64,000 nt of DNA, from positions 1 through 64,000 of the forward strand of contig NZ_FOSK01000015.1 in NCBI RefSeq assembly GCF_900114245.1. Direction: 5' to 3'. Under the pieces are notes generated by a model. The model worked only from the letters and a program-made list of their open reading frames with translations, made no database searches and had not been told where the DNA came from. The stretch comes from Pseudovibrio ascidiaceicola (GTDB lineage: Bacteria; Pseudomonadota; Alphaproteobacteria; Rhizobiales; Stappiaceae). Positions 23,019-40,738 of the stretch are shown in pieces. Both the position numbers and the translations under genes were made by a program. How positions within the stretch are numbered: position 1 is the first letter of the stretch; each line of letters opens with the position of its first letter.

Positions 23019-23951
23019 ATGGACATTCATCAACTCAAAACCTTCGTGACGGTGGCGCGCGAAGGCAGCATAACCAAAGCTTCAGAATTGCTCTTTCGCA
23101 GCCAGCCCGCTGTCAGTGCGCATATCAAGAACATGGAAGAGACATTGGGATTAACGCTCTTCCAACGCACACCGCGCGGAATGGCTGTTACACCCGACGG
23201 GCAACGCCTCCTGACGGAAGCACACCAATTGCTGGATCGGCATCAGAAATTTCTGGAGGAAGCATCCCGCTTACGCGGAAGCCTTGCTGGTAACTTGACC
23301 CTCGGCGCTGGTCGCAACTCAAGCACAGGCGTTGTAAGCAATCTGCTTGCTGCCATGTCTCAGGAATTTCCTGAGGTTGAAGTTGAGCTGCAGCATCGCC
23401 CATCTGTGAGGGTACTGGAAGGCATTCGCAATGGTAGCCTGGACGCCGGATTCTATACGGAAACGGGCGAGGACGATGCCGGACTGTCCACGTTGGAAAT
23501 CTCCAATTTCTGCGTTTATCTCGCAGCACCTGCGGACATGGTGCCCGTCGCTGCCGAAGTGAACTGGAAGGCGCTTGAAAACGTGCCGTGGATCTATCCA
23601 AGTGGCAACTCCTGTTGTGGTCGAGTGGCAAGAGATCTTCTGGACACGCACGGCATCAGACCCAAACGGGTGATCAATGTAGATGACGAGGGCGTTACAC
23701 GGGCCTTAATTGCCAGCGGTGTCGGTATCGGGCTCGTTCATGCCAATTCGACCAACCCTCAAGAGAACCAGGGTGATATCGTCTTGCTCTCTCAGGTGCA
23801 AAAATCAGCCCGCGTGTTGTTTGCGCACCTGTCCTGTCGGATAGAAGACCCGGTGATTGCAGCAGTTCGCTCCATTTTGGCGACAGACAACTGCACGAGC
23901 CTCTCGTTTGAAGACGACCGAACACTTGGGGCGGCGCTGATCGCATCCTGA
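23019..23951 (+). CDS. tdaA: LysR-type activator of TDA biosynthesis
   Basis: The 310-residue protein has a LysR HTH at residues 1-60 (MDIHQLKTFVTVAREGSITK, then LFRSQPAVSAHIKNMEE) and an effector-binding domain. A ribosome binding site GGAAGGAAAAGG precedes the ATG. It sits directly upstream of the GST-type tdaB, followed by tdaC, tdaD and tdaE, the order known from Phaeobacter. In that genus TdaA is the LysR activator required for tda expression. Identification rests on synteny with the downstream genes more than on sequence details. Confidence 0.85.
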   Translation: MDIHQLKTFVTVAREGSITKASELLFRSQPAVSAHIKNMEETLGLTLFQRTPRGMAVTPDGQRLLTEAHQLLDRHQKFLEEASRLRGSLAGNLTLGAGRNSSTGVVSNLLAAMSQEFPEVEVELQHRPSVRVLEGIRNGSLDAGFYTETGEDDAGLSTLEISNFCVYLAAPADMVPVAAEVNWKALENVPWIYPSGNSCCGRVARDLLDTHGIRPKRVINVDDEGVTRALIASGVGIGLVHANSTNPQENQGDIVLLSQVQKSARVLFAHLSCRIEDPVIAAVRSILATDNCTSLSFEDDRTLGAALIAS

Positions 23952-23977
23952 CACTTTCAAAAGAACCAGATTTGCAA

Positions 23978-24005
23978 GACTCCAGCTCAGCCATGAGCTG
24001 GAGTC
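23978..24005 (+). terminator. Hairpin between tdaA and tdaB
   Basis: A perfect 12-base stem, GACTCCAGCTCA with its complement, encloses a four-base loop 27 bases after the tdaA stop. There is no T-run. It probably separates tdaA transcription from tdaB, whose own promoter would lie in 24006-24130. Confidence 0.6.
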
Positions 24006-24135
24006 CGCTGCATCCTGCTTTCCAGTTGGGCGGATGGCTGCTCTGTCCAGTTGGCGTTAAAGACAAAAACAATCCGGAATACTGAGGAACTTTTTAGCAC
24101 AAACCCATTGTTTTATTCTCATCGGGAGAAGCCAT

Positions 24136-24834
24136 ATGCAAAGACTTCTTTACAGCCTCAGCGGAGCCTCAGGGCAGCACTACTCCCCGCATGTCTGGAA
24201 AATTATGATGTCCCTGAAGCACAAAGGGCTCGATTTTGAACTGAAGCCCGTTTCCTTTGGCGACATTTCTAAAATTGAAGATGGATCCTTCACCAGCGTT
24301 CCGGTTCTCAACGATCAAGGCACTCTTTTAGGCGACAGTTTTGAGATCGCCGAATATTTGGAAGAGACCTATCAGGATGCGCCTAGCCTTTTTGATGGCC
24401 CTGGAGGTCTCCAACTTTCCCACTTTGTGGAAAGCTACTGCAAAACCGTGCTCCACCCGACATTGGCGGTGATTGCTGTGATGGATATGTACAACATCAT
24501 GAGCGATGCCGACCGCGCCTACTTCCGGCCTGCCCGCGAAAAACGGTTCGGAAAATCGCTCGAAGATGTCTACGCAGGGCGAGACGCCGAACTGAGCACA
24601 TTGCCGGAGAAGTTGAACCCCGTGCGCGACCTGCTCACCAACCAGGATTGGTTCGGTGGTGAGAAAGCGATGCATGCAGATTATGTTCTGTTCGGGACCT
24701 TGCAGTGGTGCAAAGTGTGCTGTCCAGATCCAATTCTTGCTCCGAGTGACCCCGTCAATTTGTGGTTCGAACGCATGTTGGATCTTCATGATTATATGGG
24801 TCGCAAAGCTGTGAGCGAAGCTGTCGCTGCCTAG
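24136..24834 (+). CDS. tdaB: Glutathione S-transferase-like TDA biosynthesis protein
   Basis: The 232-residue protein has a thioredoxin-like N-terminal domain (LLYSLSGASGQHYSPHVWKI) with the cis-proline region TSVPVLND and the glutathione-binding acidic/serine turn DSFEIAEYLEE at about 70-80, and an all-helical C-terminal domain. TdaB of Phaeobacter is annotated as a GST/beta-etherase-like protein and is essential for TDA; a role in introducing sulfur into the tropone ring has been proposed. The ATG follows GGAGAAGCC. A strong terminator follows, so tdaB seems to be a separate transcript from tdaCDE. Confidence 0.85.
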   Translation: MQRLLYSLSGASGQHYSPHVWKIMMSLKHKGLDFELKPVSFGDISKIEDGSFTSVPVLNDQGTLLGDSFEIAEYLEETYQDAPSLFDGPGGLQLSHFVESYCKTVLHPTLAVIAVMDMYNIMSDADRAYFRPAREKRFGKSLEDVYAGRDAELSTLPEKLNPVRDLLTNQDWFGGEKAMHADYVLFGTLQWCKVCCPDPILAPSDPVNLWFERMLDLHDYMGRKAVSEAVAA

Positions 24835-24876
24835 CACCACAGATATTTCACACAACTCCAAATAACTAACCCCTTC

Positions 24877-24912
24877 AGAAGGCATCGCAAATTTTTGCGG
24901 TGCCTTCTTTTT
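24877..24912 (+). terminator. Rho-independent terminator after tdaB
   Basis: AGAAGGCA-TCGCAAA folds back on TTTTGCGG-TGCCTTCT, a long stem with a run of five T residues at its end. This is a strong intrinsic terminator 43 bases after the tdaB stop. Confidence 0.85.
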
Positions 24913-25249
24913 ATGCAAGCCCCTGTATTATCAATAATTTACAAGCAATAACTTCCGTGGAGGCATTCCTCATCTATCCTGAGGGAAGCCATCAGTTTTT
25001 TCAGCTTGTTCAAAGCAAACCTTTCCGGCTCCATAGGGTCACACGAAAAAATATTACTGGACGCGAGGAACTAAAATTCACCTCAAACCCGGCAGGGCAA
25101 ACGGAGATTCATTCGAGTCTGCGCGTGCTACCGCTCTGCCATGCATAAGAACAACGACAAGCCACGCAGTTTGTCAGGGGGTGCGCCTCGCGCAAATCCT
25201 GCATCGGCATTTTTCAGTCTTTCTTCCCAAGTGAAGGATCAGAGAATTT
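24913..25249. other. Intergenic region upstream of tdaC
   Basis: These 337 bases hold no convincing gene; a short frame starting near 24900 has no ribosome binding site and no recognisable motif. The region must contain the promoter of the tdaC-tdaE operon. AAGGA at 25232-25236 is the probable ribosome binding site of tdaC. Confidence 0.5.
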
Positions 25250-25900
25250 ATGGATGCACATCTCGAAGCTTCGGACTATTTGGCCAAAGGAACAGCCCCA
25301 CTGTCCTTTGATTGGGTCCGGCAAGTTCACACCTTGGGGCCGACTGGAACGAACTGCGAAAGGGCAGCTCTGACCTGGGTCAAGCGCCATTGCCAGAACG
25401 CCGAGGTCTTTCTTCACCCAACCATGGAAATTGCAGCGGAAGCCGTTGCCAAATGCCGCAAATCCGTTCTGTTGAGTGTCGTCGCCTACCCACATCTTCA
25501 TTCGATAATTTATGAGCACATCGGCCAACTGAAATTGATGGACGTGTTCATCATGAACACCGACAACATGGTGCTGGCCTCATCTACCGGCAAAACGCCC
25601 GCCCTTTGCGCAACACATCCGGCGCCGGAAAAACTGATCCCGGCATCTATTGAGCGCAAATACGTAACCAGCAATGCGCAAGCCGCAGCTGTGTGCGCCA
25701 AAGGGGAGGCTGATGGCTGCATCACCACGCTGTGCTCCGCCAACGAGTTTTCACTGACTGTCCTGACAAAGCACGGCCCCGTGCCTATGGGCTTCACCAT
25801 TCACGGCCCATTGCAGGCCGCAACACATACCCAGCCTTCATTCACCAATGATTTTCAAAACCCCAACAGGAGGGAATTTCATGACACAGAAAGCTTATGA
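25250..25900 (+). CDS. tdaC: Prephenate dehydratase-like TDA biosynthesis protein
   Basis: The 216-residue protein matches the periplasmic-binding-like catalytic fold of prephenate dehydratases: VHTLGPTGTNCERAALTWV resembles the TLGP.GT....AA start, and the later KYVTSNAQAAAVCAKGEADG resembles the region that precedes the TxR motif. The TRF catalytic motif and the ACT regulatory domain of PheA are absent, so it is not an ordinary phenylalanine enzyme. TdaC of Phaeobacter is described as a prephenate dehydratase-domain protein needed for TDA. Its 3' end overlaps tdaD by 20 bases, implying coupled translation. Confidence 0.87.
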   Translation: MDAHLEASDYLAKGTAPLSFDWVRQVHTLGPTGTNCERAALTWVKRHCQNAEVFLHPTMEIAAEAVAKCRKSVLLSVVAYPHLHSIIYEHIGQLKLMDVFIMNTDNMVLASSTGKTPALCATHPAPEKLIPASIERKYVTSNAQAAAVCAKGEADGCITTLCSANEFSLTVLTKHGPVPMGFTIHGPLQAATHTQPSFTNDFQNPNRREFHDTESL

Positions 25901-26315
25901 AACACCAATCGATATCCGCTACCGCGATACAGATTCAATGGGCCATGTGAGCAGCCCGATCTACTATGATTACATGCAGTCCGCTTACCTGGAATACATG
26001 CATGACCTGCTCAAGCTGCCTAAATCTGAAAAGCTGCCGCACATCATGGTGAAGACCTCTTGTGACTACGTTTCTCAGGCTCTTTATGGCGACCATCTGG
26101 TTGTGCTGAGCCGCGTGACAAAGTTTGGCGGCAAGAGCTTTGAGATGCAGCATGAAATGCGTCTTGGTGATGCAGATGGCCGTGTGGTTGCCAATGCAGC
26201 TTCCACTCACGTGATGTTTGATTACGAAAAGCAGGCGACCTATCCGGTGCCGGATGAGTTCAAGACTGCGGTTGCAGCTCTGCAAGAACCTGTCGCAATG
26301 CACGAGCCAGCTTAA
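25881..26315 (+). CDS. tdaD: 4-hydroxybenzoyl-CoA thioesterase-like TDA biosynthesis protein
   Basis: The 144-residue hotdog-fold thioesterase starts at the ATG 25881, after AGGAGGGAA. The active-site segment IRYRDTDSMGHVSSPIYYDY carries the conserved Asp of the 4-hydroxybenzoyl-CoA thioesterase/YbgC group. In the TDA pathway TdaD acts on CoA-bound ring intermediates derived from the phenylacetyl-CoA catabolic route. It overlaps tdaC by 20 bases and is 32 bases before tdaE. Confidence 0.88.
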   Translation: MTQKAYETPIDIRYRDTDSMGHVSSPIYYDYMQSAYLEYMHDLLKLPKSEKLPHIMVKTSCDYVSQALYGDHLVVLSRVTKFGGKSFEMQHEMRLGDADGRVVANAASTHVMFDYEKQATYPVPDEFKTAVAALQEPVAMHEPA

Positions 26316-26347: not shown

Positions 26348-27544
26348 ATGGATCTACAATGGAATGAACGTCAACAGGCTCTGCGAGCAAAGTATGCTCA
26401 AATTGGCAGCCAGATTGACCACTCAGAGCTTCATGCTGGCAAGCAGGCATTTGATCAGGACACATGGGACCGGCTTTTAGAAGCCGGTCTCTGGAAGATC
26501 ATCGTCCCGGCAGAATATGGCGGCGCAGGCACAGACTGGTGGGACTTTACCGCTGCTCTGGAAGGTCTTGCATGTTCCGTACGTACGCCGGGTATTCTGC
26601 TTTCTGTCATAGCACAGGCAGGCATGGTTCATGCACTCAACCTGTTCGGCACGGAAGCGCAGAAGAAGGATTATCTTGGCCGTATCCTCAAAGGAAAGCT
26701 GAGCGCGACTGCAATTGCGGACCCTGACACGGGCACCGATGTACGCTCCACCTCTTCTGTACTGACACCGGGACCAAATGAGACTTTCATGCTCAATGGT
26801 GCCAAATACAACATCGCCCATGCGCCCGTGGCGGATTTCACACTTGTCGTGTGTAAGCTGGATGGCCACGCTCGTGATGGCATCTCGCTCATCCTGCTGG
26901 ATGCAGGCACCAAGGGCCTGGAAGTTGGCGACTACGACCAGAAGCTCGGCAATCTGGATTTGCCAACAGGGCCGATGAAGTTCACCAATATCCCGCTGCA
27001 TTACGGTGACTTGCTTGGCATTCCCGGCAAGGGCCTGCGGAACCTGATCACCTTCGTTTCCCTCGGCAGGCTGTATTACGGTCTGGTTTCTGCATGGATG
27101 ATTGAGCCGATGCTGAAGGAAGCGATGCGCTACGCTCAGGAGCGTCAGACCTTCGAAGTGCCGGTCCTGGAGTTCCAGTACGTGCAGAAAAAGCTGACTG
27201 ACATGCGTATCTCCGCAGAATCCGCCAAGTGGACTGCTTATGGCGCGCTCCAGCAACTTCTGTCCGGTGCTCCGGAAGCAGGTATGACCTGCTCTATTGC
27301 CAAGCTAGTTGGGGCTGAAGCAATCACCAGCGGCGCTATTGACCTGCTCAAGCTGTACGGCACCAAAGGCTATCATCAGGGTGAGGTTTCGACCTTCCTT
27401 CGTGATGCACTGGCGTTTTGCGCCGTGGGTGGCACTGAGGAAATGCACCGCCGCAATATCATCAGTCAGATGAAACGGCTGGAAGCAAAGGCTGCAAAAG
27501 AAGCAGCACCCGTGCGCGAAGAACGCTTGCTTGAAACCGCATGA
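26348..27544 (+). CDS. tdaE: Acyl-CoA dehydrogenase-fold flavoprotein of TDA biosynthesis
   Basis: The 398-residue protein has the three-domain acyl-CoA dehydrogenase fold: helical N-terminus (EYGGAGTDWWDFTAALEGLA), a middle strand domain (ATAIADPDTGTDVRSTSS, LNGAKYNIAHAP) and a helical C-terminal domain ending KGYHQGEVSTFLRDALAF. The usual catalytic Glu position is not obvious. TdaE has been characterised as an unusual flavoprotein dioxygenase that oxidises a cyclic CoA-ester precursor to a tropone, rather than a dehydrogenase. GGAGATCT precedes the ATG. It completes the tdaC-D-E operon. Confidence 0.9.
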   Translation: MDLQWNERQQALRAKYAQIGSQIDHSELHAGKQAFDQDTWDRLLEAGLWKIIVPAEYGGAGTDWWDFTAALEGLACSVRTPGILLSVIAQAGMVHALNLFGTEAQKKDYLGRILKGKLSATAIADPDTGTDVRSTSSVLTPGPNETFMLNGAKYNIAHAPVADFTLVVCKLDGHARDGISLILLDAGTKGLEVGDYDQKLGNLDLPTGPMKFTNIPLHYGDLLGIPGKGLRNLITFVSLGRLYYGLVSAWMIEPMLKEAMRYAQERQTFEVPVLEFQYVQKKLTDMRISAESAKWTAYGALQQLLSGAPEAGMTCSIAKLVGAEAITSGAIDLLKLYGTKGYHQGEVSTFLRDALAFCAVGGTEEMHRRNIISQMKRLEAKAAKEAAPVREERLLETA

Positions 27545-27605: not shown

Positions 27606-28154
27606 ATGGAATTCGCCAAAGTCGCATTAGCGGCCACTCTTCTGGCAGCAACAACCGCCGCTCCCACTCTGGCAAAGAATGGTGTTGAGCGTGTGCCAAC
27701 CAAGATCGATTGGCAAGCAGCCAAAACCGCTGCAAAGCGGTCACTCGCACGGGATCCGGCCGCCGTGGAGAAGTTCGTCGCAGCCACCAACGGCAAGCTC
27801 AGCTACATTGAACTGCCAGTCTTGATTTTCGGCAGTGATGCGAAGATGGAGACACCGCAGTTCGGAAGCCAGAACTCATCCTATGCTGCGTTTTACACTC
27901 TGGAAGGTGCGCAGATCAGCATTCTCGGTTCTCACAGTGTGCTGACCGGAACAGAAGATCTCACCGAGCATCATAAGGCAACAGCGCATGAGTCCATCGG
28001 CAACGGGGCAGACTACAATCTGAACCGCTACGGGGCGCATTACACAATCCGCCTGACTTGCGATAACCCGATCAAAGACACGCGCTGCCGTAAGCCTGAT
28101 TTTCTTCAAAGCGTCGTTCAGACCCTCCTTGTTGTGAATGGAGCAAACCAATGA
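27606..28154 (+). CDS. Exported protein of the TDA locus, possible resistance gene
   Basis: The 182-residue protein starts with a signal peptide (FAKVALAATLLAATTAAPTL, cleavage near ALA-KNG) and is predicted periplasmic. The rest, with IELPVLIFGSDAKM and YTIRLTCDNPIKDTRCRKPD, is not a family I recognise; a pair of cysteines near the C-terminus (in TCDN and TRCRK) could form a disulfide. The ATG has GGAGA eight bases upstream. Its stop overlaps the start of the next gene (ATGA). Three genes follow tdaE here and their last member is a gamma-glutamylcyclotransferase, as reported for the tdaR1-R2-R3 self-resistance set of Phaeobacter, so this is probably the tdaR1 equivalent. Confidence 0.7.
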   Translation: MEFAKVALAATLLAATTAAPTLAKNGVERVPTKIDWQAAKTAAKRSLARDPAAVEKFVAATNGKLSYIELPVLIFGSDAKMETPQFGSQNSSYAAFYTLEGAQISILGSHSVLTGTEDLTEHHKATAHESIGNGADYNLNRYGAHYTIRLTCDNPIKDTRCRKPDFLQSVVQTLLVVNGANQ

Positions 28155-28822
28155 TGCGATTTATCTATCTCTGTCTGGCCCTGACCTTTGGTTTCTCCGC
28201 ACAGGCGGAAGACGCCTCCCGCTTTATGCAGCCGGGTGACCTGATTGCAGACACCGGCAAGGGTGTTGCAAGCCATGCCATCTTTTTCCCAAACATGCGC
28301 TTTCCGGTGGAGTCCGGCCCAGCCTATGCCAACTCTCACGCTTATGCGCCCGGCGGGTTCAAAGCTGATGGCGGGTCCGAGTGTGATCCTGTGAACTACT
28401 CCTACCCATGGCGCGATAACTTCTGCGAGTTCCGTAGAGCCGATCTGCCAGTTTGCGCCTCAGGCGGCCATCAGGGGCAGGATATTCGTCCGGCATCATG
28501 CGAAGCCAGCAAGCACTGGGCTGTTGCAGCAGAAGACGGCATTGTTGCTCATGTAGGTCGTTTTGGTGTGACCATCCAGAGCGCCACCGGCACGCTGTAT
28601 CGCTATGTGCATCTGGACATGGGCACACTACAGGTGAAGCCAATGGACAAGATCGTCAGAGGCAACCGCATTGGCAAGATCTCCAACAACTGGCTTGGAC
28701 CGCTACCAATCCATCTGCATTTTGATGCAAAAGACACGGTGATGCTGAACGGCGAACCAAAGTCGGTTTTCCTGCCGCCTTACACCAGTCTCGTGGCGTC
28801 CTATCAACTGATTATGGATTGA
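28151..28822 (+). CDS. M23 family metallopeptidase-like exported protein
   Basis: The 223-residue protein has a signal peptide (about 1-19, ending GFSAQA-ED). A LytM/M23 zinc domain is visible: GGHQGQDI supplies the His and Asp ligands (HxxxD), and PIHLHFD supplies the HxH pair, with RYVHLDMG between. The domain is thus catalytically complete and would cut peptidoglycan cross-links or bind the cell wall. Overlap with the preceding stop (ATGA) implies translational coupling. By position it corresponds to the middle gene (tdaR2) of the TDA self-resistance set. How a cell-wall hydrolase would help against a proton-carrying antibiotic is unclear. Confidence 0.78.
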   Translation: MMRFIYLCLALTFGFSAQAEDASRFMQPGDLIADTGKGVASHAIFFPNMRFPVESGPAYANSHAYAPGGFKADGGSECDPVNYSYPWRDNFCEFRRADLPVCASGGHQGQDIRPASCEASKHWAVAAEDGIVAHVGRFGVTIQSATGTLYRYVHLDMGTLQVKPMDKIVRGNRIGKISNNWLGPLPIHLHFDAKDTVMLNGEPKSVFLPPYTSLVASYQLIMD

Positions 28823-28902: not shown

Positions 28903-29454
28903 ATGAAAGATATTCTTTGGGTCTTTGGCTACGGCTCGCTCATCTGGCACCCCGGCTTTGAACCCGTTGAGCAAGTGCCCGCCCGTCTTGATGGCTGGAA
29001 ACGCCGGTTCTGCCTGTGCTCCCTGCGCTACCGTGGCACCTTCGACAAACACGGTCTGGTTTTGGCACTGGATGCAGCACCTGATGCGTATTGCAGCGGC
29101 GTTGCTTTGGGCATTCCCCGTGATGGGCAAGAGAAGGTGCTGGAAGACTTACGCAAACGAGAGCTGTTCAATCCGGCGTATAGAGAAATCATCACCACGC
29201 TTAAACTACAGGATGGCCGCGAGGTTGAGGCGCTCACCTATGTGGTCAACCGCGAGCATGAGCAATACGGGCAGTTTAACGCCGAAGAACAAGCTCAGAT
29301 CATCGCGACAGCTGCTGGCGAGCGCGGCCCGAACTGTGACTACCTCTGGAACACAGCAGATCACCTGACAGAGCTCGGTATCGCAGACCCGGACCTGGAC
29401 TGGCTCTCAGACCGCGTGCGCTCGATACGGTCTGATGCAGCAGCCCCAGCCTAA
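28903..29454 (+). CDS. tdaR3: ChaC-type gamma-glutamylcyclotransferase, probable TDA resistance protein
   Basis: The 183-residue protein has the ChaC signature VFGYGSLIWHPGF at residues 7-19 and the candidate catalytic glutamate in NREHEQYG. ChaC enzymes break glutathione into 5-oxoproline and Cys-Gly in the cytoplasm. In Phaeobacter TdaR3 is a gamma-glutamylcyclotransferase, and this gamma-glutamyl cycle has been proposed to offset the proton influx caused by TDA. The ATG at 28903 follows AAGGGAAAAG. Convergent with the ABC operon, from which it is separated by a bidirectional hairpin. Confidence 0.82.
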   Translation: MKDILWVFGYGSLIWHPGFEPVEQVPARLDGWKRRFCLCSLRYRGTFDKHGLVLALDAAPDAYCSGVALGIPRDGQEKVLEDLRKRELFNPAYREIITTLKLQDGREVEALTYVVNREHEQYGQFNAEEQAQIIATAAGERGPNCDYLWNTADHLTELGIADPDLDWLSDRVRSIRSDAAAPA

Positions 29455-29492: not shown

Positions 29493-30992
29493 TCAGCTTG
29501 CAGCGTTCGTTTCCGGCGCTTGGGTGCAGATGAGTTCGCCCTGTTCCAAATGACAGACTTTGTCTGCCAGCGAGCGGGCGGCGGCATGATCATGAGTGAA
29601 GAGCACCAGAGCCATCTTCTTGTTCCGCATTACACTGCGCAATATTTCCAACACCTGACTGCGGGCTTGCATGTCCAACGCAGAGGTTGGCTCATCAGCC
29701 ACCAGACATTGAGGCCGCGTTGCCAGTGCCCGTGCAATCACCAGCCGCTGCGCTTCACCGCCAGACAGCTTTCTGGTCTTACGGTGCAGGAAATCTGAAT
29801 CCGTCGGCAAACCAACCCGCTCCAGCAGCCGCGTGAGTTCAGACTGATCTCCACCAGACAGCATGAGTGCCTCTTTAAGGACCTCATAGACCGTAAAATG
29901 ACAGGCCATAGCGCGGTGCGGGTGTTGTGGTATCAGCGCCACCACGGATTTGGCGCGCCCTTCCTCATTCTGCCAATAAACGAAACCATCCTGCACGGTT
30001 TCATAGCCGCTCAACAATCGCGCAAGCGTGGTTTTGCCGCTTCCGCTTCCCCCCAAAATAGCAAGACACCGGCCAGCTGGCACGAATGCAGAAATGTTGG
30101 AGAGCAAGGCTCTTCCATCAAAGCTGTGATGCAGTTTATCAAGGGTCAATCCATGACCACTACGAGCCTCCAACTCCGGATACCCCCCTTCTCCACTCGC
30201 TAGGATCGGGGCTGAGTTATGCGCGTTTCGCCTCAGTTTCAGCAGTTGCTGGGTGTAGATGCTGCGCGGCCTGTCGAGCACCTCTTCAGCTGTTCCGATC
30301 TCAGTTAAATTGCCTTTGCGCAGTACGGCCACATGACTTGCCAGACGACGTGCCAGTTCGATGTCGTGCGTGATCAACATCTGGCAACGGTCCTCACTCC
30401 CAGTCTGAAACGAACGAATGGCGATTTCCCGATTGAAGGTATCCAGCGCTGCAGTCGGTTCGTCCATAATGAGAAACTCAGGCGAGTTTGCCAGTGCAAG
30501 CACCGTCAAAACGCGCTGAATTTCCCCGCCGCTCAGAGCCGAGGGATAGCGATGCAAAAGACGTTCCGGGATATTCCCTCTGGCGCATTCCTCATGGGCA
30601 TCACGCTCATAAAGTCCATGCGCTCTCAGCATCTCCTGCACATGCTGCAGGACCGTCAGGTGCGGGTTCAATGCATCCGACAGCGCTTGGACGATCAACC
30701 CTGCAGAACATCCTCGCATTCCCTGCAATTGTGCTCGGGACGAACGCAGGACATTCATATCTCCCAGCCAAGCTTCTCCATTCCAGCTGAAATGGTTGGA
30801 GGCCGATGGCTGCTCATTTTCTGCCAGCCTGTATCCTTGAATAAGACCCATCAGGGAACGGGCGAGGCTCGTTTTACCACCCCCAGGCTCTCCAATAACC
30901 GCCAGAGTTTGGCCTTTGTGGATCTCAAAAGAGATGTCCTCCAGCAAAGACTGGTGACCGTAGTAAAGATTAAGCTGCTCAACGCGGATCAT
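29493..30992 (-). CDS. Double-domain ABC transporter ATPase of the peptide/metal type
   Basis: The 499-residue protein has two complete nucleotide-binding domains, a fused DppD-DppF arrangement. Domain 1: Walker A GEPGGGKTS near residue 35, signature LSGGEIQRV, Walker [13 protein letters not shown]. Domain 2: GGSGSGKTTLARLL near 320, LSGGEAQRLVIARAL, LVADEPTSALD. It drives the importer formed by the two permeases and binding protein encoded upstream. The ATG at 30992 overlaps the end of the second permease gene by 14 bases and follows AAAGGAAC. It is the last gene of its operon. Confidence 0.9.
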   Translation of the reverse strand: MIRVEQLNLYYGHQSLLEDISFEIHKGQTLAVIGEPGGGKTSLARSLMGLIQGYRLAENEQPSASNHFSWNGEAWLGDMNVLRSSRAQLQGMRGCSAGLIVQALSDALNPHLTVLQHVQEMLRAHGLYERDAHEECARGNIPERLLHRYPSALSGGEIQRVLTVLALANSPEFLIMDEPTAALDTFNREIAIRSFQTGSEDRCQMLITHDIELARRLASHVAVLRKGNLTEIGTAEEVLDRPRSIYTQQLLKLRRNAHNSAPILASGEGGYPELEARSGHGLTLDKLHHSFDGRALLSNISAFVPAGRCLAILGGSGSGKTTLARLLSGYETVQDGFVYWQNEEGRAKSVVALIPQHPHRAMACHFTVYEVLKEALMLSGGDQSELTRLLERVGLPTDSDFLHRKTRKLSGGEAQRLVIARALATRPQCLVADEPTSALDMQARSQVLEILRSVMRNKKMALVLFTHDHAAARSLADKVCHLEQGELICTQAPETNAAS

Positions 30993-31824: not shown

Positions 31825-31828
31825 AAGA

Positions 31829-32879: not shown

Positions 32880-34442
32880 TCAATCAACCAGATAGGATTT
32901 ATGCAATGCTGAGGGCACGCCTATCGCCACACCACCCGGCATAAACTTGAGGGATGAGAGTTTGTCGTTATAGGCTGTCACCATGTATGGATTTGCGATG
33001 GCATAGGCAGGCAACTCTTCTGAATATACATTTTGGAACTCACCCAAAATCTCCTGCCGCTCCTTCAAGGTGGTGGCAACGGACTGCGCAATCGCAAGCG
33101 ATCTCAACTCCTCGCCGCTATAATCGTCACTGGCCCATTTGCTTCCAAAAACCCGACGCATAATTCCATTTGGGTCACCAAGCGTACCGGAAGCATAAAG
33201 CGCAAGATCATAGTTGCCCTCTGTCAGGCTGTCCTGAAGCGCCGCACGTTCTAAAATGCGAACGTCCAGCTCGATACCAAATGTCTCCAGTTGCTCCGCG
33301 ATAACTTTCGCCGTCTTGCTTTCGCGCCTGCTGGCAAGAAGGCGTAAAGCAACCTGTTCTCCATCACGGTACCAAACTCCGTCTTCTTCGCGGGTCCAAC
33401 CGTTGGAGATCAAGAGATCCGAAGCCCGTTGAAGATCAAAAGCGTAGGCCGGATGTTGCTCCTTTGAGTGCCAGACAGACTCCTCTTGAAAGAAACCAGT
33501 GTCGGCAACATCAGCAGTTTCCTGAAAAACTGTTTTGATGATAGCTGGTCGGTCAATCGCATAAGCAATCGCGTGGCGCAGCGATTTATCCTTGAAGCGC
33601 CCGGAATGATTGAAACCAAGACGAACGGAGTGATGGCTAAACGCCTTGGCCACATTCAGACCAATCTCTTCGGCCTGTTCCAATCGGTCAGGAGGAAGAT
33701 AGGAGATCACGTCGATGTCTCCGGCTTGAGCCGCCCGCAACGCCGCATCTGTCGCCATTTTCACAATCGCAATGTGCTTGAACTTCGGCTTACCCAGAAA
33801 ATAGTCCGCATTCCCTTCCAGCAAATAGCGTCCTTGTGCCTTGCTGTATTCCACAAGGCGGTAAGGCCCACTGCCAATGACAGCTTCGGGTGCCGCAAAA
33901 CGCTGTGGTTCAGCAACATCCTGATAGACGTGTTTAGGTAATACGGGCATGGAAAGCAGAAGCCCGTTCAGCAACCCGGCATCAGGCTTTTTGAGAGAGA
34001 GCTTGAGGTGATCAGGGGAGACAACCTCCGCTTCTCTCACATTATCGACTGAGACGAAGACGTAAGGATGCTCCTTCATATAGCTGAAGGTGAAAGCTGC
34101 ATCCGCCGCAGTAACCTGCTGCCCATCATGCCAGGACGCCCGCAGATCTAGGTAGACATCACAGGTCAAACCGTCTTTAGACACAGTCCAGCGCCGGGCC
34201 AGCGCAGGAACGAGCTCACCGTCTTTCGACTGGCTCAACAGACTATCAAAAACGTATGTGGTGTAGAGGTATCCAATGCCGTTTCTGCCATGAACATAAG
34301 GCGCCAACATCCCGCGGTCTCCGCGGGCATCGGTTATAACAAGCTGGTTTTTGGGACCAGCAATCCCCGCAGCAATTGTCAGCAGCAAAGCTGCGACAGC
34401 TGCGATTGCAACGCGCACAAGGGGTTGATGAAAGATGTGCAT
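32880..34442 (-). CDS. Peptide/metal-type ABC transporter substrate-binding protein (family 5)
   Basis: The 520-residue protein has an N-terminal signal segment (VRVAIAAVAALLLTIAAGIA) and the family 5 fold: YTTYVFDSLLSQSKDGELVP, LALRRWTV-like LARRWTVSKDG, ASWHDGQQVTAADAAFTF, GSGPYRLVEY and LRHAIAYAIDRPAI. Members bind di/oligopeptides, nickel or metal chelates. Ligand not predictable from these motifs. It lies next to the TDA resistance genes and TDA is a metal chelator, so a TDA-metal or metallophore ligand is possible but unproven. It follows the TrmO-like gene by 55 bases. Confidence 0.87.
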   Translation of the reverse strand: MHIFHQPLVRVAIAAVAALLLTIAAGIAGPKNQLVITDARGDRGMLAPYVHGRNGIGYLYTTYVFDSLLSQSKDGELVPALARRWTVSKDGLTCDVYLDLRASWHDGQQVTAADAAFTFSYMKEHPYVFVSVDNVREAEVVSPDHLKLSLKKPDAGLLNGLLLSMPVLPKHVYQDVAEPQRFAAPEAVIGSGPYRLVEYSKAQGRYLLEGNADYFLGKPKFKHIAIVKMATDAALRAAQAGDIDVISYLPPDRLEQAEEIGLNVAKAFSHHSVRLGFNHSGRFKDKSLRHAIAYAIDRPAIIKTVFQETADVADTGFFQEESVWHSKEQHPAYAFDLQRASDLLISNGWTREEDGVWYRDGEQVALRLLASRRESKTAKVIAEQLETFGIELDVRILERAALQDSLTEGNYDLALYASGTLGDPNGIMRRVFGSKWASDDYSGEELRSLAIAQSVATTLKERQEILGEFQNVYSEELPAYAIANPYMVTAYNDKLSSLKFMPGGVAIGVPSALHKSYLVD

Positions 34443-34956: not shown

Positions 34957-35219
34957 TTGTGAAGCCGTAATAGGTTGCAAAATTAAACACTTAACGTCTC
35001 CAAAGCCAAAGCCTACCTCAACAACAGATCGATACTTGGAGACGATATCCGAGTAAATTCGATTTATCGAATGGGGTACCTCAGTTTTTCTGAGGTCTCT
35101 CTGATTAGCATGTTCGAAAATGCTGAGGCTATGCCTCTGATAAATCGATTGGATTATTAGCAAGCGCAAAAAACATAGTTCTGGCACCTCATATTTCAAA
35201 ATCAGAATCACAGGTCGCT

Positions 35220-36671
35220 ATGACAGATCACACCCAGCACGAAACAGCCCCGGCCTCCGGCCTCAGTCCCACGCCCGAAAAAATAAAGTCCTCGTTTAAC
35301 ACCAAACAGACCTGGCAGTTTCTTGGTGTTGCAGTTGCCGCCACCATCGCGGGTCTTCTGGCCTCCGCTTATCTGCCTGCTGGCATGGCCGTTGCTGCGG
35401 TCTTATCCGTTGGTTGTCTCGGCCTATGGGCAACGGGTGTGGTGCCGGAATACTGGACCGCGCTCGCCTTCTTCTTCGTTGCCATCGTAATAGGGATTGC
35501 CCCACCGGATGTGGTGTTCTCCGGCTTCCAGACCTCAACCTTCTGGCTGCTGTTCGCAGGCCTCGTGCTTGGCGCCTCCATCAAGCACACCAAACTGGAT
35601 AAACGAGCTGCGGTACTGCTGATGCGTTTGCCACTCAACAGCTATGCGGGGCTGGTCTCCAGCATCGTCGCCTTCAGTGTGGCGCTGGCGTTTGTGGTGC
35701 CCTCATCCATTGGCCGTATCATGATTTTGCTGCCGGTGATCTCCGCCCTTGCTGCGCAGATCGGCTTCAAACCCGGCTCCAACGGGCGCACGGGCATGCT
35801 TTGTGCAGCGGCCTTTGCGACCTTTGCTCCAGCCTTCACCATTCTGCCTGCCAATGCCCCCAACATGATCCTCGCCGGGATGAGCGAGAGCCTCTATGAC
35901 CTCAGCATTTCCTATTGGGATTACTTGCGTTTGAACTTCCCGGTTCTGGGCATCCTGAAGTCACTCATCCTTATCGGACTGACGCTGGTCCTATTCCCGG
36001 ACAAGCTTCCTCAGGACGCGCATGAGACCACTGAGGCAGTCACACCCGTCAGCGCTCCTGAACGACGCCTGATGATCATTCTGGCGTTGTGCCTCATCTT
36101 CTGGCTGACGGATAGCCTACACCCGATTGGCCCGGCATGGGTTGGCCTTGCGGCGGCTCTGGCGTGCTTCTGGCCCAATGCCAAGCTGACCTCCAAAACC
36201 TGCATCAATCAGGACCTGAGCTATGGCTCCCTGATGTTCGTCGCGGGCATTATGGGGCTGGGTGCAGTCATTTCAGTTGCCGGACTGGGTGAAGCTTTGG
36301 TTCAGGCTGTTGGCGGCAAAGCTGGTTTTTCGCAGGACACTCCAATCTGGAACCTGTCGGTTCTCACTGGCCTGTCGACGCTGGTTGCCATGGCAACAAA
36401 CCTGCCGGGTGTGCCAGCTGTGATGACACCGGTTGCCGGGGATTTGGCCGATGCCACTGGCCTGCCCTTGCAGACTGTTTTGATGACGCAGGTCATGGCG
36501 TTTTCCAATGTGTTCCTGCCGTTTCAGGCTCCACCACTGGTCGCCGCCATTCAGGTTGGAAACCTGCCACCAAAAGCCGTGATCAAACTGTGTCTGACCC
36601 TGTTTGCGATCAGCCTGTTCCTGCTTGTCCCGATCGACATGCTGTGGTGGTACCTGCTCGGATTTCTTTAA
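35220..36671 (+). CDS. SLC13/DASS-type anion:sodium symporter
   Basis: The 483-residue protein has about twelve hydrophobic segments and family signatures: FSGFQTSTFWLLFAGLVLGA in the first half, LMFVAGIMGLGAVISVAGL, and MATNLPGVPAVMTPVAGDLA with the SNT-like ligand/sodium site (here ATN) in the second half. Relatives carry dicarboxylates, citrate, sulfate or other anions. It begins an apparent block with the haloperoxidase-like gene within the TDA region. Substrate and direction of transport are unknown; export or uptake of an acidic TDA-related compound is a possibility. Confidence 0.83.
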   Translation: MTDHTQHETAPASGLSPTPEKIKSSFNTKQTWQFLGVAVAATIAGLLASAYLPAGMAVAAVLSVGCLGLWATGVVPEYWTALAFFFVAIVIGIAPPDVVFSGFQTSTFWLLFAGLVLGASIKHTKLDKRAAVLLMRLPLNSYAGLVSSIVAFSVALAFVVPSSIGRIMILLPVISALAAQIGFKPGSNGRTGMLCAAAFATFAPAFTILPANAPNMILAGMSESLYDLSISYWDYLRLNFPVLGILKSLILIGLTLVLFPDKLPQDAHETTEAVTPVSAPERRLMIILALCLIFWLTDSLHPIGPAWVGLAAALACFWPNAKLTSKTCINQDLSYGSLMFVAGIMGLGAVISVAGLGEALVQAVGGKAGFSQDTPIWNLSVLTGLSTLVAMATNLPGVPAVMTPVAGDLADATGLPLQTVLMTQVMAFSNVFLPFQAPPLVAAIQVGNLPPKAVIKLCLTLFAISLFLLVPIDMLWWYLLGFL

Positions 36672-36679
36672 GCATCTTC

Positions 36680-36784: not shown

Positions 36785-38050
36785 ATGACGACCCGATTTA
36801 CTTGGTTGAAGACAATTGCTTACAGTGGCGCTTTGGCGCTTGTGATTACTGGTGGAGCCGCCAAAGCAGAATTGGCTGCTGACTGGCAAGACACCGCCAT
36901 GGGCCTTTTCAACGCTGAAAAATGGCCAGGTGCCAAACGCCAGCGCGCCCTGACAATTTTGCATACTGCAATGTTCGACGCCGCGAACGCAGTTGAAGGT
37001 ACCTACGCCCCTTACGCGTACACTGGCTCAACCAATCCGGATGCATCTGCGCAAGCAGCCGTTAATCAGGCCGCCCTGCACGTTCTGTCAGTCTTGATGC
37101 CAGAGCGTAAAGCGGAGTTGGAAATTGCTGCAAAGGAACGCCTTGCAAACCTGAAGAGCCCGCAGTCTGGCATTGCCCTGGGTCAAGCCGTTGCAGAGCA
37201 AATTCTGGCAGCACGCGCATCAGACAATGCTAACTTCTCAGTAGATTACACACCGGGTCCGACGGAAGCAGGTGTGTATCAGCCAACCTCCGAGCGCGAG
37301 ATGGTTGCCCCCAAAATTCGCGAGATGAAACCATTTGTCCTGTCCTCCGCAACCCACTTCCGCGTGCCGCCACCTCCGGCACTGGAGAGCATGCAATACC
37401 AGCGTGGTCTGAGCGAAGTCGTTGAGATGGGCGGCAAGGAAACACAGACTAACGAGGACAATGTCTTCATCGCCAAGCTTCATGCTGGCTCTGGCTCCGG
37501 AGCATGGAACCAGATCGCCCGCAAAAGCAGTGCGTCCTGTGATCTGTCCATGCTGGAAGAAGCTCGCACGCTCGCGCTTCTCAACATTGCACTGACAGAC
37601 GCATTGGTTGCTGGTTTCAACGCAAAGTATGAATACGCTTTGTGGCGTCCGCAAACCGCAATGGAAGCTTTGGGCAAGACCTATAAGCACCCAACACTCA
37701 AGGCCGATATGGAGTGGAGTTCTCTGGTGCCTGCACCAATGCATCCTGAATATCCATGTCAGCACTGCACCAGCGGCAGTGCGGCTCAGGAGATCATGGA
37801 ATCCGTCTTTGGTGACGGCAAAATGGCCTTCACTTTCAACGGCAAGGGCGGTCTTTCCAAAGACTATGTCAGTTTCCAGCAGTTTGCCGAGGAAGAGTCA
37901 GAATCCCGTGTTCTCGGCGGCGTTCACTACCGCCGCTCCAACGCTGTTGGCGACATGTTGGGCTACCAGATCGGCTCTTATGTTGCAGAGACCTCTTTGC
38001 AGCCTCTGAAGCAAATCAGCGACATCAAGAAATGTGCAGGCAGCCGCTAG
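36785..38050 (+). CDS. Exported vanadium-haloperoxidase/PAP2-superfamily protein
   Basis: The 421-residue protein starts at the ATG 36785 and has a signal peptide (cleavage near GGAAKA-ELAA). The C-terminal half carries the phosphate/vanadate-binding layout: YALWRPQTAM (Arg), PMHPEYPCQHCTSGSAA where the canonical PSGH is changed to PCQHCTSG but keeps the His, and GVHYRRSNAVGDMLG (His and Arg). Vanadium haloperoxidases halogenate organic compounds; PAP2 relatives are phosphatases. Two cysteines in the active loop are unusual. It sits between the anion symporter and tdaF. It could tailor, oxidise or detoxify an extracellular product, but this is inference. Confidence 0.75.
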   Translation: MTTRFTWLKTIAYSGALALVITGGAAKAELAADWQDTAMGLFNAEKWPGAKRQRALTILHTAMFDAANAVEGTYAPYAYTGSTNPDASAQAAVNQAALHVLSVLMPERKAELEIAAKERLANLKSPQSGIALGQAVAEQILAARASDNANFSVDYTPGPTEAGVYQPTSEREMVAPKIREMKPFVLSSATHFRVPPPPALESMQYQRGLSEVVEMGGKETQTNEDNVFIAKLHAGSGSGAWNQIARKSSASCDLSMLEEARTLALLNIALTDALVAGFNAKYEYALWRPQTAMEALGKTYKHPTLKADMEWSSLVPAPMHPEYPCQHCTSGSAAQEIMESVFGDGKMAFTFNGKGGLSKDYVSFQQFAEEESESRVLGGVHYRRSNAVGDMLGYQIGSYVAETSLQPLKQISDIKKCAGSR

Positions 38051-38079
38051 GTCAGCTCCTCCTGACTTAGCTTGCACTT

Positions 38080-38192: not shown

Positions 38193-38723
38193 ATGGAAAA
38201 TCGAACTGGTTTAGCACTCCGCATTCTCTTTGTTGGCATTGGCGCAACGCTCTTCATGGATATCTGGGCCATCGCAGCAGATAGCCTCTTTGGCATTCCG
38301 CAGAGCAATTTCTCAGTGGTGGGTCGCTGGCTGGGGCACATGCTGGACGGACAATTCACCCACGAAAGCATCCGCCGCGCTGCACCTATCGCAGGAGAAG
38401 CAGCCCTTGGCTGGACGGTGCATTATCTGGTCGGGATCATCTTCGTTGCAGCTTTCGTCATGATTTTCGGAAATCGCCAGTTGCAAAAACCATCTCTGAT
38501 CCTTGCGATCTTGTTTGGCGTTGTGATGATCGTGTTCCCATTCTTCGTTATGCAGCCATCTCTTGGGGCAGGCGTTATGGCTGCCAACCGGCCAAACCCA
38601 GACTTCGCACGCCTGAAAAGCCTCATGACGCACTTCTCATTCGGCCTGGGCATGTATGTAGCGCTTTGGGTTCAGACCAAGATCTTCAAACCAATTGAAG
38701 CACCGGTTTCCTCCGCATCCTGA
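38193..38723 (+). CDS. DUF2938-like small membrane protein
   Basis: The 176-residue protein starts at ATG 38193 after AAAGGAACAGG. Four hydrophobic segments lie at about 8-27, 67-90, 97-120 and 140-165. The pattern FMDIWAIAADSLFGIP, then the Gly-His-Met GRWLGHMLDGQF and a FGLGMYVAL C-terminus resembles DUF2938, a family of inner-membrane proteins without known function. It lies between strong terminators, so it is a single-gene transcript convergent with tdaF. Confidence 0.72.
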   Translation: MENRTGLALRILFVGIGATLFMDIWAIAADSLFGIPQSNFSVVGRWLGHMLDGQFTHESIRRAAPIAGEAALGWTVHYLVGIIFVAAFVMIFGNRQLQKPSLILAILFGVVMIVFPFFVMQPSLGAGVMAANRPNPDFARLKSLMTHFSFGLGMYVALWVQTKIFKPIEAPVSSAS

Positions 38724-38741
38724 TTGTTTCAGGATCACGAG

Positions 38742-38775
38742 AAAGCCCGCCGTTCATCTGAGCGGCGGGCTTTTT
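38742..38775. terminator. Bidirectional terminator between the DUF2938 gene and tdaF
   Basis: AAAGCCCGCCG pairs perfectly with CGGCGGGCTTT around a ten-base loop, with T-runs reading in the plus direction and A-runs that give T residues on the minus strand. It serves both convergent genes. Confidence 0.9.
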
Positions 38776-38798
38776 GTCGATCGGGAAAGCCGTTGAAG

Positions 38799-39398
38799 TT
38801 AGCTTAGCTCAAGCTCTCTGCGAACCTGATACTGAGGCAGATGCTTCTTGATCTGCTCCACCACCACCTCAGGATCGGGCAGTGACTGGTGACCGTGGAT
38901 CTTACCCATGTGCGGGTCAAAGTTCTCACGCCATACCGGATCACACACCTCGTAACCATCTTCGCGGATCTGCGCCACATTGCGCTTTACAGAGGGCTTC
39001 TTCCACATGGGCCCGCCCATCACCGGGAAGAAGAGCACCGGAAACTCAGCAGCAAGAATGACCGTGGTCAGGCGGTTGAGTGAGGAACCATTGGCAACAC
39101 CAGACAACGTGTTGGCCGTTGCTGGCATCACGGCGAGAATATCGTGCTCGGCTGCGATGCGTCCCGGCTTGTCCGTGGACCAGTCTTTCGGATCATCTCC
39201 GCAGATCACCCGATCCACAAACAACGCGATGCTGTCCATGTTCACGAAGTTGATAGCATTAGGCGTAAACATGGCGGTGAGTGTGCAATCAATCGAATTC
39301 TTGATCTCTCGCAGATAGTTGGGCAGCAGCGTCGCATCCAGAGATGCGCTCGCCCCAATCAGAATGCGGGCCTTGTCAGGAGTGTCATTGGTGACCAT
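38799..39398 (-). CDS. tdaF: HFCD-family flavoprotein of TDA biosynthesis
   Basis: The 199-residue protein belongs to the homo-oligomeric flavin-containing Cys decarboxylases (phosphopantothenoylcysteine decarboxylase/EpiD type). ILIGASASLDATLLPNYLRE at the N-terminus, the flavin/substrate loop DILAVMPATANTLSGVANGSS and the PVMGGPMWKKPSVKRNV strap typical of the fold are present. TdaF of Phaeobacter is proposed to release thiol sulfur by decarboxylating a cysteine adduct on the tropone. Here it lies about 11 kb from tdaE and on the other strand, unlike the compact Phaeobacter cluster. It diverges from a reductase gene with a 326-base spacer. Confidence 0.86.
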   Translation of the reverse strand: MVTNDTPDKARILIGASASLDATLLPNYLREIKNSIDCTLTAMFTPNAINFVNMDSIALFVDRVICGDDPKDWSTDKPGRIAAEHDILAVMPATANTLSGVANGSSLNRLTTVILAAEFPVLFFPVMGGPMWKKPSVKRNVAQIREDGYEVCDPVWRENFDPHMGKIHGHQSLPDPEVVVEQIKKHLPQYQVRRELELS

Positions 39399-39724
39399 GG
39401 AAAAATCCTCTCTGTAAAATCCATTTCAAGATGATGGAGGTGCCGCGCGATTGGCGCCTTTGGGTGAGCTACGGAACCCTAGGGGAGGTTGGTGAGTGCA
39501 CCTTGGCCAGCTCATCGCGCGGTGTCTTTTTCTGGTCGCCAGATGACCTCAAATCATGCCTCATATTCCAATTGTTTCTTTGAAATGCTCTCCTCAGGTT
39601 TGCTGAGGGCGAGGGCTCAGATTTGCTGATAGGCCGCCTCAGAACTTCCGATGTGCAATGAGAATGTACTGCTGGCATGGTTCCATTCAGATAAGCCATC
39701 AGGCTGCTGGAACTGGAGGGATTG
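39399..39724. other. Divergent spacer between tdaF and the reductase gene
   Basis: No credible gene is seen in these 326 bases. They must hold the promoters of tdaF (minus) and of the reductase (plus). CTGGAGGG at 39713-39720 is the ribosome binding site of the latter. I found no clear long palindrome. Confidence 0.5.
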
Positions 39725-40738
39725 ATGAGGGGTGCTGAAGTCAAAACCATTTGCGTTGCAGGAGCCAGCGGGCTGGCCGGGTCTTATATGGTCAAAGAAG
39801 CCCTCGCGCGCGGCTATCGCGTCAACGGCACCATGCGCGACATTTCCCAGCTCGATAAAGTCAGTGGCTTGATGCGGTTGCCCGGCGCGGCAGAAAGGCT
39901 GCATCTGTTTTCAGCAGATACAGCCAACTCTGAAAGGTTCGATGCGGCTATGACACAAGCGAAGGCTGTGTTCATCGCTTGCATTCCAACGACCAAACAC
40001 GGCGTAGACGGGACGCCTGCTGCGGAGCTGGATCGCGAGCGCGGCTTGACAGAGATCATCCAACCTGCAGAACAAGCCTGCCTGAACATCTTGAAAGCAG
40101 CGCATCGGCAAGGCGTTAAAACAGCAGTGCTCTGTTCCAGCACGGCCTCCGCAGAACCTGCCACGCCCTCCTTTGAAAAGCAGGAGGACAAGGACATTTC
40201 AGATGCCGAGATGCAGATCCAGCAAAAGAAATACGCGCAGGCACAAAAGACTGTAATGGAAGCTGCGGCAGAAGAGTTTACCGCGCAACATGGCATGAAG
40301 CTTTGTACCTTCTTGCCAAGCATGATGGTCGGTGCGCCCCTCCTACCTTCGCACTTGAAAGGTCACGTCCTCAGCTTTCTTGCAAAACTGCGGCACGGCA
40401 AAACGGGTTGGCACAGCACTGTTCCAGCCGGTTCCATGTCCCTCACCTCCCCGCAGGATCTTGCAAAGATGTCACTGGCTGCATTGGACCAGGCAGAGGC
40501 CTCCGGACGCTATTTTGCTGTGAGCGGCAGTTGGAGTTGGCGTCGGATTTATCAGGAAATTGCCGAGTACGTGCCGTTGGAGGCGCTGCCGGCCCCACTT
40601 GGCAGAGATCCGGAACCGCCAACGCGCTTTGACTTCAGCAAGCGCGACAGTCTCGGCGTTCCGATACAAGGCATTCAAGAGATGTTTGCCGATTTTTATG
40701 AGGCCTATGAGCAGGTCAGGCTCGTTCCTCAAGCCTGA
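39725..40738 (+). CDS. NAD(P)-dependent extended short-chain reductase (epimerase/DFR-like)
   Basis: The 337-residue protein starts at ATG 39725 with GGAGGG five bases upstream. The N-terminal Rossmann motif ICVAGASGLAGSYMVKEAL is at residues 9-27. The family's active-site Tyr-Lys is represented by Y170 and K175 (KKYAQAQK), one residue further apart than YxxxK, and the partner serines are in LCSSTAS at about 137-143. It resembles dihydroflavonol/cinnamoyl-CoA reductases and NmrA-like proteins. It is divergent from tdaF, so a role in TDA formation or tolerance is possible; no TDA gene of this type is known to me. Confidence 0.75.
   Translation: MRGAEVKTICVAGASGLAGSYMVKEALARGYRVNGTMRDISQLDKVSGLMRLPGAAERLHLFSADTANSERFDAAMTQAKAVFIACIPTTKHGVDGTPAAELDRERGLTEIIQPAEQACLNILKAAHRQGVKTAVLCSSTASAEPATPSFEKQEDKDISDAEMQIQQKKYAQAQKTVMEAAAEEFTAQHGMKLCTFLPSMMVGAPLLPSHLKGHVLSFLAKLRHGKTGWHSTVPAGSMSLTSPQDLAKMSLAALDQAEASGRYFAVSGSWSWRRIYQEIAEYVPLEALPAPLGRDPEPPTRFDFSKRDSLGVPIQGIQEMFADFYEAYEQVRLVPQA

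Follow-up and report, generated by a model that had tools for sequence, protein, structure and literature searches.

A predicted TdaA regulon reaching the transport genes of the tropodithietic acid locus of Pseudovibrio ascidiaceicola

The window analysed here is a stretch of 64,000 nucleotides from Pseudovibrio ascidiaceicola (contig NZ_FOSK01000015.1, positions 1 to 64,000), which carries at 23019-40738 a locus for tropodithietic acid (TDA). We propose, with a probability of roughly 0.7, that this is a standard TDA locus in which the genes between tdaR3 and tdaF compose an accessory layer, co-controlled with the biosynthesis genes through putative boxes for the LysR-type regulator TdaA. These genes encode an ABC importer with its substrate-binding protein (SBP), a TrmO-like methyltransferase dependent on S-adenosylmethionine (SAM), an SLC13 transporter, a protein resembling vanadium-dependent haloperoxidases (VHPO-like) and a small DUF2938 membrane protein. 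We read this apparent "insert" as an older transport module that is probably under TdaA control. The observations behind the proposal are the conserved gene order, the co-occurrence of the genes, the positions of the boxes, and the adjacency of TdaA-like regulators to the same transporters in genomes that lack TdaE. As far as our literature search shows, the predicted TdaA regulon and the free-standing modules are new here, while the layout was already known.

TdaA, probably together with a small-molecule co-inducer, would bind the sequence CCTCA-N7-TGAGG in three promoter gaps. It would thereby switch on tdaCDE-tdaR1-R3, a putative trmO-like/ABC operon, a putative SLC13-VHPO-DUF2938 operon, and tdaF with the epimerase gene.

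Gene order and the CCTCA-N7-TGAGG box

The order tdaA-E, tdaR1-R3, ABC importer, TrmO-like gene, SLC13, VHPO-like gene, small gene(s), tdaF and epimerase is common to all six genomes that carry TdaE (88-100% identity) among the 16 Pseudovibrio genomes compared. It recurs with the same strands on the TDA plasmids of Phaeobacter inhibens 2.10 and DSM 17395, and as an order in G095, yet Phaeobacter belongs to a different bacterial order from Pseudovibrio. The layout, which an earlier sequence-only reading of this DNA had called "expanded" by an "insert", is therefore not confined to this genome. A chance event in this lineage, in which unrelated genes inserted into a once-compact TDA cluster and split it, would fit the position of these genes outside the tdaA-F core. 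It would also fit Tritonibacter and Epibacterium, in which SLC13 directly follows tdaR3, so that the ABC-TrmO part can be absent there. However, the shared position and order across two bacterial orders, the co-occurrence with TdaE and the shared box all speak against it, and we regard it as hardly credible; the suggestion of "unrelated genes that moved in" is thereby disfavoured. A lineage-specific insertion was rejected because the Phaeobacter and Pseudovibrio loci carry the same order.

Side-by-side comparison of the promoter gaps brought out CCTCA-N7-TGAGG, a perfect inverted repeat. LysR-type boxes contain T-N11-A within an inverted repeat, and the sequence has this form at all three gaps. 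Exactly three exact copies occur in the window, before tdaC, in the trmO-like/SLC13 gap and in the tdaF/epimerase gap, against 0.08 expected, and none of 100 shuffles gave three or more. The gaps before tdaA and tdaB hold no exact copy. Each of nine loci (six from Pseudovibrio, and those of P. inhibens 2.10, G095 and DSM 17395) likewise has exactly three boxes in the same gaps, the third falling in the paaZ2/epimerase gap in Phaeobacter. Since the pattern was picked after the gaps had been viewed, a fairer test than the shuffles is an enumeration of inverted repeats (5-bp arms, 3-12 bp spacers) in eight of the loci with this layout. Among 1,931 classes, the box was the only one with three copies in every locus, and the only other class found in all eight is the inner part of the same box. 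By eye, conservation in the trmO-like/SLC13 gap appears highest at the box and at a CTCTGATAAATCGATTGG block downstream of it.

The whole genome contains 22 exact boxes, compared with 2 copies of a reversed control pattern. If sites were scattered uniformly, finding three of the 22 within the 17.7-kb stretch of the locus would have P = 4e-5. As for the other 19, a rough caller of open reading frames (ORFs) placed 18 inside ORFs, one of them doubtful, and one in a gap; it also put the tdaC box in a doubtful 82-aa ORF, so that verdicts of "inside an ORF" are rough. The sole gap-placed box outside the TDA locus (G000:C39:143300-146300, site 1526) lies in a short gap at genes that by eye resemble those of iron-sulfur assembly. 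Another exact box (G000:C34:29300-32300, site 1522) is located, again by eye, between a LysR gene and a glutamate-cysteine-ligase-like gene, within a doubtful 195-aa ORF, and is of interest because the ChaC-like TdaR3 links to glutathione.

The peptide SQPAVSAHIK, which we take to be the DNA-binding helix of TdaA, is kept in all ten aligned TdaA rows whose locus has an exact box. It is altered to SQPSVSAQIK in Epibacterium and Tritonibacter, where the exact box is also lacking. The available text of PMC6224355 reports that TdaA binds the tdaC promoter, gives a predicted LysR site there, and describes a TDA-less P. inhibens variant with a 1-bp insertion in that predicted site. In P. inhibens 2.10, the published site is found 7 bp to the 3' side of box 1.

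Co-occurrence with TdaE and free-standing modules

The SBP is present in the same six of the 16 Pseudovibrio genomes as TdaE, at 71-100% identity, and additionally in G012 at 50%. Our searches for TdaE, SBP and TdaA at family and order level covered samples of 394-397 genomes and scored, in each genome, the 3-5 best first-look candidates. In the family to which Epibacterium G016 belongs (394 genomes sampled), TdaE (E <= 1e-60) and the SBP (E <= 1e-80) match the same two genomes (Fisher 1.3e-5). Plasmid records in PLSDB give a similar picture: 58 Phaeobacter and 3 Tritonibacter records account for 61 of 64 matches to TdaE, 61 of 61 to the TrmO-like protein, 61 of 68 to the VHPO-like protein and 61 of 94 to SLC13 (likewise 61 in the 60-80% identity band), the agreement being one of counts by genus rather than record by record. 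Matches to the SBP and to TdaA-like regulators coincide over 397 genomes, with four carrying both and two and one carrying either alone (Fisher 7e-8); the value falls to 0.015 without the three TDA genomes.

Pieces of the transport module were also found in genomes without TdaE. The Pseudovibrio genomes G012, G015 and G005 encode TdaA-like LysRs, 49-53% identical, and no further LysR in these three attains E 1e-25; another such regulator is present in G473, of another family in the order-level sample. In G015 and G005 it adjoins SLC13 (53-54%), which is preceded by an exact box. In G012 the regulator and TrmO-like-SBP-permease-permease-ATPase diverge, as do LysR-SLC13 and SBP-permease-permease-ATPase in G473, and in both genomes the intervening gap holds a box with one mismatch. 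None of the four has a TdaE orthologue, their matches at E <= 1e-20 being just 25-30% identical.

Tritonibacter and Epibacterium present a different case. A second, distantly related ABC-TrmO cassette lies elsewhere on the Epibacterium TDA contig and on the TDA plasmid of Tritonibacter F1926. We rejected the idea that it is the same cassette relocated, since in the SBP tree it groups with Martelella (100/99). The presence of a different cassette near these TDA genes suggests selection for function, although chance on a plasmid is also possible. On the Martelella plasmid, a class I SAM methyltransferase (6058-6690; Methyltransf_25, weak TehB/TPMT) stands near the SBP-ABC cassette in the place of TrmO, and a TauE/SafE gene is nearby.

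These modules admit of more than one history. An old transporter set with a substrate unrelated to TDA, from which TdaA was recruited and whose linkage persists only through the shared regulator, would account for the module pieces beside TdaA-like LysRs in genomes without TdaE. It would also suit strain M619, which according to the available text of PMC11595833 makes and secretes TDA with tdaA-F only. We consider this rather unlikely, however, because the distant second cassette on the Epibacterium contig and the Tritonibacter F1926 plasmid suggests that the function matters to producers. A tentative alternative is that the TDA locus was built around a pre-existing sensing and transport module of TdaA-type LysR, box, SLC13, TrmO-like protein and NikZ-like ABC importer. 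Non-producers (G473, G012, G015 and G005) might then sense and handle TDA or tropone acids from their neighbours, whereas producers might export, recapture and methylate their own. The free-standing modules offer a route to the natural ligand of TdaA-type regulators.

Several findings weigh against the proposed accessory layer under TdaA control. Regarding the regulator, the available text of PMC6224355 reports TdaA binding for the tdaC promoter only, and our deeper TdaA tree is poorly resolved. The TDA loci of Tritonibacter and Epibacterium lack an exact box: in Epibacterium (G016) the paaZ/epimerase gap carries a site with one mismatch, and no palindrome common to different gaps was found in these loci. 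The boxes of G012, G473 and G016 all have one mismatch, and 2.43 such sites per 64 kb are expected by chance. Regarding the module, that of G473 has no TrmO, G588 and G742 have TrmO-like and ABC genes without an adjacent TdaA-like LysR, and the cassette of Tritonibacter and Epibacterium belongs to another subfamily, grouping with Martelella. The SBP is also less exclusive to TDA plasmids, with 61 of 110 PLSDB records (E <= 1e-40). The remainder are mostly Sinorhizobium (40), with Ensifer (5), Martelella (2), Paenibacillus (1) and Fusobacterium (1), and their surroundings were inspected for Martelella only. In two Phaeobacter plasmids, among the matches listed, the SBP match is broken into three pieces. 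Finally, essential roles are disfavoured by M619: because this strain is said to produce TDA with no more than tdaA-F, TDA synthesis does not require the layer, although among the five strains measured M619 had the lowest relative TDA abundance (PMC11595833, available text).

Candidate roles of the accessory proteins

The sequence-only reading had offered export, metal handling, tailoring and tolerance of TDA as functions of an accessory layer. Co-inheritance and predicted co-regulation argue for the layer itself, whereas the substrates and activities considered below stay conjectural.

The best solved matches of the SBP are 4oet (E 3.7e-37) and 5isu (3.3e-33), with AppA also near. We take the former to be Campylobacter NikZ, a nickel binder, and the latter (Lmo0135) to be the cysteine-transport protein CtaP. 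Among the NCBIfam matches listed for the importer parts (25 of 191 for the ATPase), none reaches its cut-off, and the NikABCDE equivalogs stay below theirs as well (NikA 129/393, NikB 112/447, NikC 106/358, NikD 243/319 and NikE 213/333 bits). It is conceivable, though far from assured, that this NikZ-like importer recaptures a TDA complex, possibly metal-TDA.

Two narrower roles for the importer were weighed. If it served metal handling alone, recovering TDA-chelated iron or another metal with no part in tolerance, the NikZ/NikA-like SBP would be explained. The same holds for the G588 module, after which comes an ABC importer that resembles the siderophore type in sequence (no family search made). 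TDA chelates iron, and TDA-iron transport is named as future work in the available text of PMC13421778. This role seems improbable, with no TonB-dependent receptor among the 20 locus proteins searched. Alternatively, the importer might take up cysteine peptides, such as Cys-Gly released by the ChaC-like TdaR3, or another sulfur donor, and SLC13 sulfate, to supply the dithiet sulfurs. In its favour, some members of SBP family 5 bind peptides, 5isu ranks second among the solved matches, SLC13 matches Na_sulph_symp, and tdaR3 is ChaC-like. On the other hand, the best solved match is 4oet, NikA outscores GsiB by 129 to 54 bits, the glutathione and dipeptide cut-offs are not reached, and no sulfur genes were seen by eye (no family search made) beside the modules of G015, G005, G473, G588 and G742. 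We therefore hold sulfur supply to be doubtful.

The TrmO-like protein scores above the cut-offs of TrmO_N and TIGR00104 (130.2 against 93.25 bits for the latter), which places it in this domain family. It need not be the tRNA enzyme, because the genome has three TrmO_N genes including this one. A 237-aa version starting at 35211 was rejected, its first 85 residues being taken as non-coding by alignment. A methylated TDA analogue with reduced activity is reported to come from the pathway (PMC13421778), and methylated analogues are reported with the enzyme unnamed in the available texts of PMC13421778 and PMC9942592. Since a SAM enzyme stands beside the importer and such an analogue is reported, the idea that the TrmO-like enzyme methylates TDA, or a compound derived from it, into a weaker product is a testable guess, and for now a speculative one.

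SLC13 is 61-67% identical in Phaeobacter and Tritonibacter, among the matches listed. Because all TDA loci read contain it, even those that lack the ABC cassette at this position, it is the best candidate for moving TDA, and may carry the TDA carboxylate across the inner membrane, an assignment in which we place limited confidence. No dedicated TDA transporter is named in the available texts of the TDA literature found, and no literature joining tropodithietic acid with SLC13 was found; one paper came up for the acid paired with haloperoxidase.

The VHPO-like protein, whose over-long listed ORF start was corrected to 36785, matches the vanadium-dependent haloperoxidase 4cit (E 1.9e-18), in line with the "haloperoxidase-like" call of the sequence-only reading. 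Its Pfam score of 21.3 bits, however, is below the cut-off of 27. The vanadate pocket of haloperoxidases is formed by K-x6-R, S-G-H, R and H. Lys281, Arg288, His327, Arg375 and His381 are kept in 7/7 sequences, while Ser-Gly is replaced by Cys325-Gln326 in all seven, leaving five of the seven pocket residues. Peroxidase activity is uncertain because of this replacement, and we reject the assignment as a proven haloperoxidase, with PCQH in place of PSGH, in favour of "VHPO-like". A role of this apparently secreted protein in oxidising sulfur outside the cytoplasm is possible at best. Its AlphaFold model has a mean predicted local distance difference test score of 42.7. A Rhizobium relative carries P-E-Y-I-S-G-H, and on a Nostoc plasmid (1-4155) a GST, a cupin, a VHPO-like CARDB protein and a sulfate adenylyltransferase are clustered, possibly in a sulfur-related context. 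The DUF2938 gene is also found in Tritonibacter and Epibacterium. The locus thus offers conserved candidates for TDA-iron transport, TDA methylation and TDA transport, all predicted to be under TdaA.

Locus features and comparison with known TDA loci

Every gene named by the sequence-only reading is present at 23019-40738, as judged by ORFs and family matches (Table 1). Its observation that tdaF lies apart from tdaA-E, on the opposite strand and some 11 kb away, was confirmed at 11.3 kb from tdaE to tdaF, or 9.3 kb when tdaR1-R3 are excluded from the "insert".

Table 1. Genes and predicted TdaA boxes of the TDA locus, in positions of the window
Feature	Position	Strand	Remarks
tdaA, LysR-type regulator	23019..23951	+	Pfam HTH_1 and LysR_substrate; P. 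inhibens TdaA 66% identical
tdaB, beta-etherase/GST-like	24136..24834	+	family matches and synteny
box 1, CCTCATCTATCCTGAGG	24968..24984	+	upstream of tdaC; same gap in 9/9 loci of this layout
tdaC, prephenate-dehydratase-like	25250..25900	+	weak NCBIfam match; 59% identical in P. inhibens
tdaD, thioesterase	25881..26315	+	4HBT_2
tdaE, acyl-CoA dehydrogenase-like	26348..27544	+	family match; Phaeobacter 69% identical
tdaR1-like	27606..28154	+	43% identical over 74% to same-place P. inhibens gene
tdaR2-like, M23 peptidase	28151..28822	+	family match; 64% (P. inhibens)
tdaR3-like, ChaC gamma-glutamylcyclotransferase	28903..29454	+	family match; 71% (P. inhibens)
ABC importer, fused double ATPase	29493..30992	-	two ABC_tran stretches; start picked from ORF
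ABC importer permease	30979..31866	-	BPD_transp_1
ABC importer permease	31829..32806	-	BPD_transp_1
ABC importer SBP, NikZ/CtaP/AppA-like	32880..34442	-	SBP_bac_5
TrmO-like SAM-dependent methyltransferase, 152 aa	34498..34956	-	TrmO_N 122.5 bits; start by alignment
box 2, CCTCAGTTTTTCTGAGG	35079..35095	+	trmO-like/SLC13 divergent gap; same gap in 9/9 loci
SLC13/DASS transporter	35220..36671	+	Na_sulph_symp
VHPO-like protein	36785..38050	+	signal-like N-terminus (by eye); PCQH replaces PSGH
DUF2938 small membrane protein	38193..38723	+	family match
tdaF, flavoprotein	38799..39398	-	family match; P. inhibens 71%
box 3, CCTCAGGTTTGCTGAGG	39592..39608	+	tdaF/epimerase divergent gap; 9/9 loci
NAD-dependent epimerase/dehydratase-like, conserved locus edge	39722..40738	+	present in every full-length locus read

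The window has the features of an alphaproteobacterial TDA locus, namely homologues of tdaA-F, a tdaA-E block with tdaF outside, and tdaR1-R3 downstream of tdaE. Its TdaA-E proteins are 94-99% identical to those on two named Pseudovibrio contigs. With the TrmO start corrected, a divergent promoter gap of 263 bp separates the trmO-like gene from SLC13. The tdaF/epimerase gap is only 323 bp and so has no paaZ2 next to tdaF, a trait of Phaeobacter and Tritonibacter that we do not take as defining for Pseudovibrio. Upstream of tdaA lies an amino-acid-type SBP gene with a LysR gene (20479-22376), and downstream of the locus a LacI gene with another SBP gene (40746-42952). These flanks recur in 5/6 Pseudovibrio TDA genomes and were not seen in the G010 stretch. 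In P. inhibens 2.10, tdaA is directly preceded by an additional peptide-type ABC importer of five genes and an additional LysR gene. The draft genome G004 has tdaC in two frames and a TdaE match over 346 of 398 residues, perhaps through sequencing error or decay. In Pseudovibrio G013, a relative 36% identical to TdaE lies at the end of an 11.6-kb contig, which gave no match for any other of the 22 query proteins.

The synteny comparison that the sequence-only reading had called for found the order kept in Pseudovibrio and Phaeobacter, while the ABC-TrmO part is missing from this place in Tritonibacter and Epibacterium. P. inhibens DSM 17395 and 2.10 share tdaA-E, tdaR1-R3, the four ABC genes, the TrmO-like gene, SLC13, the VHPO-like gene, tdaF, the epimerase and the three boxes. 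They differ in two ways: paaZ2 separates tdaF from the epimerase, and DUF2938 is replaced by two other small genes. The available text of PMC13311259 gives these two as DUF4399 and DoxX family genes, and counts two of the genes adjoining tdaF as part of MIBiG BGC0000932. The P. inhibens TDA cluster is delimited as PGA1_262p00800-00980, 8-fold down in ctrA/cckA mutants (PMC11974857, available text). Because tdaF is 00810 and tdaE 00940 in DSM 17395, with 12 genes between, this range covers the ABC, TrmO-like, SLC13 and VHPO-like genes. Transport genes in the TDA cluster are also mentioned in the available text of PMC11595833.

Table 2 of PMC4278212, so far as its text is available, lists tdaE and tdaF of Pseudovibrio FO-BEG1 as PSE_2259 and PSE_2247, with 11 tags between them, the gene number found here, and 11-12 tags for JE062, W64, W74 and WM33. 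Tritonibacter mobilis and Epibacterium sp. Ofav1-8 share tdaA-E, R1-R3, SLC13, VHPO, DUF2938, tdaF and the epimerase, but have no ABC-TrmO part between tdaR3 and SLC13. More distant is the Janthinobacterium locus, which according to the available text of PMC13163973 makes TDA with tdaA, B, D, E and F, without tdaC, in a different order and with tdaF within the block, whereas in the Alphaproteobacteria compared there tdaF lies outside the tdaA-E block. The layout described here is thus the standard alphaproteobacterial TDA locus, already published in pieces.

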